A stretch of DNA of 33,626 bases from Bacteroidota bacterium. Lineage in GTDB: Bacteria > Bacteroidota > Bacteroidia > Chitinophagales > Chitinophagaceae. Positions 3,756-16,241 of the stretch are shown here, in pieces. The stretch's first letter is position 1; each line of letters begins with the position of its first letter. Where the stretch lies: the NCBI GenBank assembly GCA_025356235.1, contig JANXUL010000280.1, positions 1-33,626 on the forward strand. The letters run 5' to 3'. The position numbers were made by a program, and so were the translations under genes. Below the pieces are notes generated by a model. It did no database searches, was not told the origin of the DNA, and worked only from the letters and a program-made list of their open reading frames with translations.

Positions 3756-3934
3756 ACCTGTTAACTAAGAAGGATGAAATGAGTGGTGTTGACTTATTTG
3801 TACAAAGTTGCTGAATTGATTCGCTGTTTGTATCAATCCGGCATAAAAAAATTGTGCTCAGGTGTAAGCGGCAAAATAGTTCATGGGCCATAATTAATAG
3901 TTCATCGATGATAGCCGAAGAAGGTTGAGGTTTG

Positions 3935-4468
3935 TCAGGCTGTATTTGAGCGGTATCTGCCAATTCTTGTAAATAACAGTTCCACAATAAAAATCATCAA
4001 TAAACTAATGGCTGTGGTGCCTAAAACTTTACCGATAAAATAAATGAGGTTGCCAAACTGCAGCCATTCAATCAGTACTAAATAAAAATGATGGATGAAA
4101 GTGAGAATGCCAATGTATAAACCATACGGTGCCCAACCCATACTTTTTGGCCCGGGTTCTACATAACTCTGTTCGGTGGTTTCCTGGGGTATTAATAAGT
4201 TAAGCAGAAAGGGGCGGAGATAAGCGATCAAGGTACAGGGTGCTGCGTGAAGGCCGGGCGTTCCGGTAAAATAATCCAGGGTAAGGCCGAATATGAAACT
4301 GATTACCAATAACGCAAAACGATTTAGTTTAAAAGGCAGCCACAGGATGTATAAAAAATATAAATAAGGAACAATGAACCGGTGCAGCGGTGGAACCTCA
4401 TTCAGGATAAATACCTGGAAGACGATAAACAGTACAAAGCGGATAATATTTTTCAGCAGGCTGCTCAT
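3935..4468 (-). CDS. mreD: Rod shape-determining protein MreD
   Basis: 177 aa hydrophobic protein in the canonical position between mreC and PBP2; 4-nt ATGA overlap with mreC. Confidence 0.88.
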   Translation of the reverse strand: MSSLLKNIIRFVLFIVFQVFILNEVPPLHRFIVPYLYFLYILWLPFKLNRFALLVISFIFGLTLDYFTGTPGLHAAPCTLIAYLRPFLLNLLIPQETTEQSYVEPGPKSMGWAPYGLYIGILTFIHHFYLVLIEWLQFGNLIYFIGKVLGTTAISLLMIFIVELLFTRIGRYRSNTA

Positions 4469-5316
4469 GGTATTTTTGAGGGATTCGTTTCGAGTTGCAC
4501 CTGTTCAGTATATCGTGTATTTTCAATCAGGTACACATATTGTATATTGTAGAAATTGGTAGTTGTTTTTATTTTCAGCGTATAAAAATTACTCGACGAT
4601 TCGGAGGCGATCGCTGCCACAGTCCCAATCATTAGATGAGGTGGAAAATTAGCAGAGTAATTACTGGTTACCACCGTATCGCCTTTACTTACTTTAGCGC
4701 CTTTGGTAACATTTTTAAGTAGTAGATAAGATGGGTCGATGCCATCCCATTCAATAGTGCCGGAACTATTGTCTTTTTTCAACATGGCACTTACCTTACT
4801 GTTGCGGTGTAATAAACTCATAACACGACAGTAATTGGCGCTTACTTCAACCACTACACCCACGATGCCTTCCGGCCCGGTAACAGCCATTCCTTTTGTT
4901 ACTCCCTGTGCCGTTCCTCTTTCCAGCATTAAAAAATTAGCCTGTAATGTATAGGTATTGCCTACCACTTTTGCCGGCAGGAATGTGAATTTACGCACAT
5001 GGCCCAGGCTGTCTTTGATCAAAGAATCAATTACATATTTTTTACCGGTATTGGGTGAAAGGAAATTTGCGGGAAGCAGGTTACGTAAACGTGCATTTTC
5101 TTCTGCCAGTAAACGGTTGGTTTCCTGTAGTCCAAAATAACTGCGAAGATGGCTGTAGCGCGTGTCGAAGCTGCCGGTAACTTCATTGGCAGCAGAAGCA
5201 AAAAATGATTGATGTGTTTTACTGGCATTGCCCAACATCACAATAGCAAGAACCTGTAACAGCAAAAAGCTGAGAAAGGTGAAGTATTGCCGTATGAAGA
5301 GGAAGATATTTTTCAA
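4465..5316 (-). CDS. mreC: Rod shape-determining protein MreC
   Basis: 283 aa; N-terminal TM, coiled region 'ETNRLLAEENARLRNLL', 'GTAQGVTKGMAVTGPEGIVGVVVEVSANYCRVMSLLHRNSKVSAML' typical of MreC. Confidence 0.95.
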   Translation of the reverse strand: MKNIFLFIRQYFTFLSFLLLQVLAIVMLGNASKTHQSFFASAANEVTGSFDTRYSHLRSYFGLQETNRLLAEENARLRNLLPANFLSPNTGKKYVIDSLIKDSLGHVRKFTFLPAKVVGNTYTLQANFLMLERGTAQGVTKGMAVTGPEGIVGVVVEVSANYCRVMSLLHRNSKVSAMLKKDNSSGTIEWDGIDPSYLLLKNVTKGAKVSKGDTVVTSNYSANFPPHLMIGTVAAIASESSSNFYTLKIKTTTNFYNIQYVYLIENTRYTEQVQLETNPSKIP

Positions 5317-13990: not shown

Positions 13991-15250
13991 ATGGTAAATC
14001 GTAGGGCGTTTATGAAGTCGGGTGCTTTGGCACTGTTTGCAGCAGGGGTAGGTGGGGTACCTACTTTTATTGCCCGTGCCGCTGATAGCAGGAAGATACT
14101 ATCACCCTATAAAAAAAATAAAATACTTGTTTGTATTTTCCAGCGGGGTGCAATGGATGGGTTGATGGTGGTTAGCCCCTATACAGACCCCAACCTGAAA
14201 ACACTTCGCCCCACATTATATATGAGTCCTGCAGAAACCGAAGGAAAATTAACGGACCTGGACGGCCGCTTTGGATTACACCCATCTATGCAATCACTGG
14301 CACCGTTTTTTACAGAAGGGCGTATGGCTATTGTGCATGGTGTGGGCAGCCCTAATAATACACGCAGCCATTTTGATGCGCAGGATTATATGGAAAGTGG
14401 AACGCCTTTCAGTAAAAGCTCAACCAGTGGCTGGCTTAATAGGGCTGTGGGTTTATTAGGGCATGATGCCACTCCGTTTCGCGCAGTAAGTGTAACCAGT
14501 TCGCTACCCAGAAGTTTGTATGGCGATAATGAAGCATTGGCCATTAATAACCTGCAGGAGTTTGCCATACAGATGCGTGGCAACCCATTGGCATCCAACC
14601 TTGCTTCAAAATCATTTGAGCAGTTATACGATCAAACATCGAGTGAAATTTTAAACCGCACCGGTAAAGAAAGTTTTGATGCGATGAAAATGCTGAATGT
14701 AAATAATATTAAGAATTACCAACCTGCCAATGGTATCGTATATCCTAATTCTGCGCTGGGTAATTCTTTAAAACAGATCGCTACTTTAATTAAAATGAAT
14801 GTGGGCTTAGAAGTGGCTTTTGCAGAAAGTGGCGGATGGGATACGCATTTTAACCAGGGAACGATTAATGGGGCACTGGGCAGGAACCTGAAAGATTTTA
14901 GCGATAGCATTGCCGCATTTTGGAAAGACCTTGATGCCTACCAGGATGATGTAACCGTAATGACCATGACCGAATTTGGCCGCACCGCGCACCAGAACGG
15001 AACCGGAGGTACCGATCACGGAAGGGCAAGCTGTTTATTCGTTTTAGGAAATAATGTGAAGGGTGGTAAAGTATATAACAACATAAAAACATTAGCCAAA
15101 GAAGACCTCGAAGATGGCCGCGATCTGCCGGTGAGTACCGATTTCCGATCTGTGTTCAGCTCAGTGGCTAACGGGCATTTGAAGATCAATAATAATAAAA
15201 GCCTTTTTCCAACCTGGGAAGGGCAGGGATTGGGATTGATGAAGGGATAA
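13991..15250 (+). CDS. DUF1501 domain-containing protein, Tat-type signal
   Basis: 419 aa; 'NRRAFMKSGALALFAAGVGG' twin-arginine-like signal; 'VCIFQRGAMDGLMVVSPYTDP', 'HFDAQDYMESGTP', 'MTMTEFGRTAHQNGTGGTDHGRA'. Confidence 0.94.
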   Translation: MVNRRAFMKSGALALFAAGVGGVPTFIARAADSRKILSPYKKNKILVCIFQRGAMDGLMVVSPYTDPNLKTLRPTLYMSPAETEGKLTDLDGRFGLHPSMQSLAPFFTEGRMAIVHGVGSPNNTRSHFDAQDYMESGTPFSKSSTSGWLNRAVGLLGHDATPFRAVSVTSSLPRSLYGDNEALAINNLQEFAIQMRGNPLASNLASKSFEQLYDQTSSEILNRTGKESFDAMKMLNVNNIKNYQPANGIVYPNSALGNSLKQIATLIKMNVGLEVAFAESGGWDTHFNQGTINGALGRNLKDFSDSIAAFWKDLDAYQDDVTVMTMTEFGRTAHQNGTGGTDHGRASCLFVLGNNVKGGKVYNNIKTLAKEDLEDGRDLPVSTDFRSVFSSVANGHLKINNNKSLFPTWEGQGLGLMKG

Positions 15251-15360
15251 AATATAAGTGCCAACAATGGCAGAGATTACGCCTGCTGTCTTTCTTAGCT
15301 TTCGAATAAGGGGTACATGCTGTGTATCCACTGTGTTTATGAAGTGCCTGTTAAGTCAGA

Positions 15361-15415
15361 TCTCTATAATATCTCTATAAGGTCTCTATAACATCTCTAT
15401 AAGGTCTCTGTAGAT
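15361..15415. repeat. 11-bp tandem repeat array, 5 units
   Basis: Units start at 15361, 15372, 15383, 15394, 15405: TCTCTATAATA, TCTCTATAAGG, TCTCTATAACA, TCTCTATAAGG, TCTCTGTAGAT. Confidence 0.93.
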
Positions 15416-15514
15416 AGTACCTTTTTTTTCAGATCCGGCAGTATTTCTTTTGAAGAAAAAAACTTATTTTTAGTCATTACCCGTGTATAAACAAAATACG
15501 TTTTAAAACCGGTT

Positions 15515-16204
15515 ATGGCAAAAAATATTCATGCTACCATTGAATTGCAGGGAACATTGGGTGGGTTGGTTTTTGTGCATAGTACTAAATACGACAAACA
15601 TGTGCGTGCGGCAAGGGGTACATTTAAAAAAGCGCCCTGTAATAAAGTCCTTAGAAAAAACGCTTCGGTAACTGCTTTATTGAATGCGGCTGTTAGTCCT
15701 GTATATCATTTTTTTAAAAGTTATTACAGCCCTTTTATGACCGGGCAGGTATGGCCGGAGCTACTACGGTGTGTGCGACGTTCCGAAAAAACCGACCTGC
15801 TGTCACTCATGATGACGATTGAAGGTCTTGAGCTCAATGAGCGGTATACGTTTGCAAAATTAGTTACGAACGTAGATGTGACTGTAACAAGCCATATGCA
15901 AAAAATCAGTGTTGATATTGGCGCCAAAACCCATCCCGTTTTCAAAAGTGCGGGTGTTAATAGTTACTATTACGATATTGTTATACTGTTTCCGGGTGAG
16001 AAAGGTAGACTTGTTACTGATTCTATCAGCACCGAATGGGTAAGTGTACATGATGAAGTACCTTTTTATGAACTGGTATTTAAGAAGCCGGCAAAATCTA
16101 GCTGTTACCTGTTACTGGTGAAGGTGCAGGGGGGATACAATGGTAAAGAAGGAAATTCATTTGGCATGAAGGGAGTACAGGTGGTGAAAGTGGGGAAGTG
16201 TTAA
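15515..16204 (+). CDS. Uncharacterised protein, 229 aa
   Basis: Long ORF on the coding strand of the neighbourhood with ATG; N-terminus 'ATIELQGTLGGLVFVHSTKYDKHVRAARGTFKKAP'; no signal peptide or TM seen; no family recognised. Confidence 0.75.
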   Translation: MAKNIHATIELQGTLGGLVFVHSTKYDKHVRAARGTFKKAPCNKVLRKNASVTALLNAAVSPVYHFFKSYYSPFMTGQVWPELLRCVRRSEKTDLLSLMMTIEGLELNERYTFAKLVTNVDVTVTSHMQKISVDIGAKTHPVFKSAGVNSYYYDIVILFPGEKGRLVTDSISTEWVSVHDEVPFYELVFKKPAKSSCYLLLVKVQGGYNGKEGNSFGMKGVQVVKVGKC

Positions 16205-16241
16205 TTGATTTTGCGCCTTTGCGCGGATATCTTCCGAACAA

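Follow-up and report, generated by a model that had tools for sequence, protein, structure and literature searches.

In centromere-binding protein/iteron systems, the gene for the binder is preceded by an array of short direct repeats with a spacing of about one helical turn, and the same protein also acts as a repressor of the promoter; in pSM19035, arrays of this kind occur at other promoters too (PMC5016525). In RAYT/REPIN systems, the gene-flanking repeat is gene specific and is dispersed intergenically in the same genome, and several such pairs can be present per genome (PMC3116915). In Porphyromonas gingivalis, BrickBuilt is presented as a minisatellite-MITE of 23-nt units with inverted-repeat ends, with 19 copies in one strain, and no associated gene family is named in its abstract (PMC4596501).

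The locus considered here is an 11-bp-phased array upstream of a gene for a 229-aa protein, in the window (the whole 33,626-nucleotide stretch of DNA that was analyzed), which is contig C50 of a 3.55-Mb Bacteroidota assembly. It resembles ParR-parC and other centromere-binding/iteron systems (types Ib and II) in having a direct-repeat array upstream of a gene. In ParMRC-type partition, the binder engages every repeat and wraps the DNA. Such systems, however, place a motor protein gene beside that of the binder, whereas the window gene has neither an ATPase or actin-like partner gene nor any recurrent neighbor; its family has no match to ParR/RHH families, and its arrays lie on the chromosome, where up to tens of dispersed copies are found. 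As in RAYT/REPIN, the gene-adjacent repeat is also dispersed in the same genome, but it is a direct 11-bp array instead of a palindromic REP doublet, whose copies are usually paired in inverted orientation, and no family search of the window protein or its homologues returned the IS200/IS605-like Y1 tyrosine transposase of RAYTs. On the tested features, membership in ParMRC-type partition or in RAYT/REPIN fails. The likeness to BrickBuilt lies in short tandem units that are dispersed and intergenic in Bacteroidota. In positions 15200 to 15560 of the window, the repeats are direct and no inverted repeat was found.

Results

The phased array and its gene

The array (block B, positions 15361 to 15415, plus strand) consists of (TCTCTATAANN)x4 followed by a degenerate fifth unit. 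Perfect copies of TCTCTATAA start at 15361, 15372, 15383, and 15394, with no other plus-strand copy in the window, and the fifth unit, at 15405, is TCTCTGTAG. An earlier, sequence-only reading had described a strictly phased five-unit repeat; it was right about the 11-bp phase and the coordinates, but only four units are perfect. Its observation that the last two bases alternate was confirmed (the spacers after the TCTCTATAA units are TA, GG, CA, and GG), and Tandem Repeats Finder favors a period of 22 (score of 91) over a period of 11 (score of 76), both being the top scores in the window. Self-match scores at lag 22 (25.2) and lag 11 (23.8) exceed those of every other lag between 6 and 60 across the full 33.6 kb, and 30 mononucleotide shuffles of the window, scored at lags 10, 11, and 22, gave a maximum of 11.8.

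Directly 5′ of this array, block A (15317 to 15360, plus strand) is a weaker 11-bp-phased block whose motif differs from that of block B and which stays in register with it; its lag-11 identity is 0.48, against a mean of 0.24 at other lags and 0.43 at the next best lag. On the 3′ side, an AT-rich stretch (15416 to 15514, plus strand), which is a putative promoter region and is common to other array copies, separates the array from the start codon at 15515, a distance of 99 bp that agrees with the one given before. Between orthologues of another genus, the corresponding stretch shows strong conservation.

The array-associated gene (15515 to 16204, plus strand) encodes a 229-aa protein with a basic N-terminal region containing predicted helices and a predicted C-terminal beta-sandwich, and its neighbors in the window are DUF1501, DUF1800, and penicillin amidase genes. 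Neither this protein nor its homologues have a meaningful match in Pfam, NCBIfam, PHROGs, or PADLOC, the family searches found no nuclease, recombinase, or transposase family, and Rfam gave no meaningful match. No relatives turned up among phage or plasmid records, and the matches to viral contigs were three simple repeats. The protein family is undescribed in every library searched, and no earlier description of the system was found in open-licence papers. In the predicted structure (mean pLDDT of 83.5, with low confidence for residues 1 to 16), an N-terminal hairpin and helices accompany a seven-strand C-terminal sandwich. Neither a PDB search with the model nor a profile search returned a match at an E value of ≤0.001; fold matches in PDB and BFVD are weak, with low TM-scores, many of them to immunoglobulin-like or other beta-sandwich domains, and no DNA-binding fold was recognized in the model, profile, or Pfam comparisons. 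In complete homologues, the first 50 residues carry a net charge of +2 to +10. Orthologous gene pairs from two genera yield dN/dS values of 0.15 to 0.21, which are rough, with synonymous sites near saturation, and by this measure the family is under purifying selection; along these alignments, array and promoter-proximal segment persist, while most of the upstream sequence has diverged.

Distribution of the family and its linkage to arrays

The window protein had no close homologues in a scan of named genomes, and a first pattern search of 100 relatives, a sample from which the array-bearing species were absent, recovered arrays from the host genome alone. Searching the genus yielded one convincing relative of the protein (29% identity), with an array of the same kind in its upstream DNA. 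Scanning named genomes for the pattern returned 100 stretches of array, clustered in a small number of Bacteroidota, the array-rich genomes including Paraflavisolibacter caeni, a Niastella MAG, and several uncultured Bacteroidetes; in four such genomes, five gene copies in all encode a homologue of the 15515 protein and begin a short distance 3′ of an array. A profile search built on six proteins, five of them found via their arrays, places the family in 27 of the 399 genomes of the host's family, with up to seven copies each. A broader profile has matches in 36 of 395 genomes of the class, among them Bacteroidia proteins that begin like MARQKGIIKLKGTIGDITFYKTQDG, distant homologues of the 15515 protein, some with upstream arrays, although 20 of 28 lack a detectable one.

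Linkage between gene and array was measured without reference to motif, by scoring self-matches at lags 6 to 30 in the 450 bp upstream of each homologue against a shuffle threshold, with the 450 bp downstream and the segment 750 to 1,200 bp upstream serving as controls. The earlier reading had made arrays upstream of orthologues a point to be checked, and they are there: 24 of the 26 core loci have one, always of period 10, 11, or 22 (scores of 17 to 47), whereas none of the 52 control segments has a period of 10 or 11, their three matches all being of period 7. Core loci were chosen by protein similarity, with the array not a criterion, but two or three of them (L188, L189, and L214) are array-found copies from the starting alignment. 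No array was detectable at L201 or at L212, of which L212 matches the wider superfamily in part. In that superfamily, arrays were detected upstream at 8 of 28 loci (seven of period 10, 11, 20, or 22 and one of period 16), and its controls have no match of period 10 or 11. Across homologue loci, the array usually ends 65 to 150 bp before the ATG, and within 1.5 kb of the gene there is no neighbor family that recurs across genera. Linkage of the gene to a phased array is, by these sequence comparisons, well supported.

Two sets of loci are recorded separately. L239 and L242, in the wider superfamily, have upstream repeats of period 8 or 16 (CTCAATTC and TCAACGAT) instead of 10 to 11. In a Prevotellaceae MAG (L106, positions 3873 to 4921), an eight-unit TCTCTATAA/TCTCTAGTTC array lies 39 bp before a 306-aa ORF that has no good Pfam match; profile comparison shows no homology of this ORF to the family, from which it was left out, and it is possibly an independent gene-array pair in Bacteroidales.

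At the genome level, 8 of the 399 genomes from the host's family contain TCTCTATAA arrays, and each of these carries the gene; the 372 genomes without the gene have none (Fisher P = 1.5e−10, with relatedness lowering the effective sample size, although the eight array genomes represent five genera). Outside this sample, C24_bin-0237 (G160) has arrays, and its fragmented assembly, in which a contig ends in the array, yielded no gene.

Unit sequence, period, and two-block layout

Unit sequence differs between gene clades, the consensus units including TCTCTATAAGG, TCGCTATAAGG, TCTCGATAAGG, TCCGTATAAGG, TCAGTAGAAGG, TCTCGTAAAGG, and TCAGGANAACA, but the period is constant: the 11-bp spacing, which the earlier reading had proposed to follow into relatives, is kept even as the sequence changes, apart from 10-bp units in two remote homologues. 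In genus g120, each of four genomes contains several paralogues with different cores, and motif matches average 9.1 of 11 by protein clade across genomes versus 7.2 by genome (0 of 2,000 permutations). Linked inheritance of array and gene could also make the motif follow the clade, which alone is no proof of recognition. In P. caeni, between-unit identity is 0.95 at position 9, which lies outside the search pattern, and 0.26 and 0.60 at positions 10 and 11; in other genome sets, some of positions 6 to 9 are more variable and the contrast between core and spacer is less sharp. The two-block layout recurs elsewhere: a second 11-bp block, in register and with a species-specific motif, lies 5′ of the TCTCTATAA block in four genome sets (z = 2.2 to 11.7), and over 23 homologue loci, lag-11 identity is 0.41 versus 0.255 (z = 7.5).

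These patterns bear on the alternative raised at the outset, that the array is a functionless satellite generated by slippage. Slippage does occur, as the arrays of 12 to 13 nearly identical units in AM-2014_bin-0134 indicate, but it is a poor explanation for a core that stays constant within an array whose two spacer bases differ from unit to unit, for a period kept between genera of differing sequence, or for linkage to a single gene family at both the locus and the genome level, and we regard it as very improbable.

Dispersed arrays and the repeated unit

Eight arrays are present in the host genome, on contigs C45, C49, C50, C102, C170, C228, C255, and C302. In seven of them, similarity extends beyond the array to about 100 bp after it and mostly also to the first bases of the gene, while C170 has the array alone in common with the others. 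The remnant of the gene's 5′ end is about 70 to 90 bases in C49 and C302 and about 20 bases in C255 and C45; in these truncated copies, the array is nearly unchanged, and the whole matches, flanks included, are 71 to 86% identical to the window copy. The window copy lies in a longer segment (15261 to 16221, plus strand) whose 5′ side is common to C228 (96% over 15261 to 15600) and C102 (84%) and whose 3′ side is common to C104 (100% over 16143 to 16221); upstream DNA, array, promoter region, and gene together make up a single repeated unit. That C228, C102, and C104 match the window and all terminate inside the unit suggests near-identical gene copies that the assembly did not resolve. An imperfect hairpin like GTTGGTCAGGCGACCAAC is seen near the 5′ edge of several array copies (upstream in C102, C228, C49, and C255).

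Other genomes show similar patterns. In MAG4 (BWOrgHeat_Nextera89), copies keep the array, promoter region, and gene start, as in the host genome, and in AM-2014_bin-0134, three copies are repeats of 600 to 785 bp around the array that have a terminal motif in common. Dispersed arrays are nearly all intergenic, and two close genomes have orthologous arrays at identical places. The earlier reading, with its cooperatively binding regulator, is partly supported: both of the outcomes that it had named as refuting turned out in its favor, and array type tracks the gene family, but its picture is incomplete in that most arrays of each genome have no intact gene behind them. Two further observations concern individual genomes. 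Contig ends L080, L084, L134, L145, and L152 of P. caeni carry the same sequence, whose end, ...cttgacttttaacacagaa, directly abuts the first TCTCTATAA; this resembles the end of a single insertion sequence that entered several arrays at an identical point. G490, in a pattern search of 27 genomes, has several dozen matches to TCGATATAACT-core arrays beside the TCTCTATAAGG type, to which no gene was assigned with certainty (L278 has CAGCTATAACT).

The dispersed copies are the basis of the main rival to an operator reading, a selfish system like RAYT/REPIN in which the protein mobilizes or copies the unit, gene-less arrays are nonautonomous descendants, and the array is a movement site. Such a system would account for the intergenic copies in gene-carrying genomes, for the repeated unit at 15261 to 16221 and the three repeats in AM-2014_bin-0134, for the truncated copies in C45, C49, C255, C302, and MAG4 that keep array, promoter region, and gene start, and for neighbors that do not recur across genera. 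However, the searches returned no nuclease, recombinase, or transposase family, the predicted fold is a beta-sandwich with helices, close genomes hold orthologous arrays in the same places, and no target-site duplication, empty site, or movement has been demonstrated; we consider this explanation tenable, though on balance unlikely.

A different possibility is that a host regulator or nucleoid protein uses the arrays as operator or bending sites, with the gene family just one of several targets. Consistent with this, the array lies just upstream of the promoter region, most units have one TA step per helical turn, and dispersed arrays favor divergent over convergent gene gaps (14 to 4, P = 0.015, from rough gene calls). 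A single host factor, however, would have no need of different motifs for paralogues in one genome, and arrays of this motif are missing from all 372 gene-less genomes sampled from the family; we judge this possibility improbable.

Discussion

We propose that the array and the 229-aa gene form a functional unit, the product binding its own array, controlling its own promoter, and meeting the dispersed copies, a reading to which we give an even chance. Binding of the array by the protein would most simply account for a basic family whose genes, with few exceptions, lie behind a phased, clade-specific array. We infer the binding, the oligomeric mode, the autoregulation, and the role of the dispersed sites as follows. 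The basic N-terminal region would recognize the core of about 9 bp (TCTCTATAA here), and since the 11-bp units all have the same orientation, protomers would line up head to tail along a single DNA face, one per helical turn. Loading upstream of the gene's own promoter would control its expression, most likely by autorepression, by analogy with centromere-binding proteins on iteron arrays. Dispersed arrays would be further binding sites, many of them left by copies that lost the gene.

Counting for this proposal are the linkage and co-occurrence of gene and array, the clade-following motif, the constant core, and the two in-register blocks, as well as the retention of the array and promoter-proximal segment in orthologues, the dN/dS values, the basic N terminus, and the array-to-ATG distance. 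Against it stand the lack of a recognized DNA-binding fold, the low confidence of the first 16 model residues, and the wider superfamily, in which an array is detectable at no more than 8 of 28 loci and has a period of 16 at one of them; moreover, another protein could be the array binder, and gene-less arrays with intact motifs could be passengers.

Both an operator and a selfish reading have known functional analogues, the closest being centromere-binding/iteron and RAYT/REPIN systems, even though the protein family is undescribed. More speculatively, and with rather less confidence than in the functional unit itself, the locus may represent a new class of gene-repeat system in Bacteroidota, in which an unclassified family with clade-specific cores polymerizes on phased two-block arrays, with matching arrays spread through the genome and several insulated pairs per genome. 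Its purpose could be chromosome organization, self-propagation, or coordinated regulation without a known mechanistic counterpart.

Gene and phased array point to an undescribed pair of a gene and a putative DNA-binding array. Across many species, an unannotated protein family is thereby tied to a definite target in the DNA, and its function becomes immediately testable. Should the protein prove to bind the array, clades with different cores would provide a natural set for working out a protein-DNA recognition code, and the dispersed copies would mark its sites of action; if instead it spreads arrays, it would represent a mobile-element mechanism unlike that of known transposases. The locus also shows that behind a short, satellite-like repeat there can lie a conserved system overlooked by automatic annotation.
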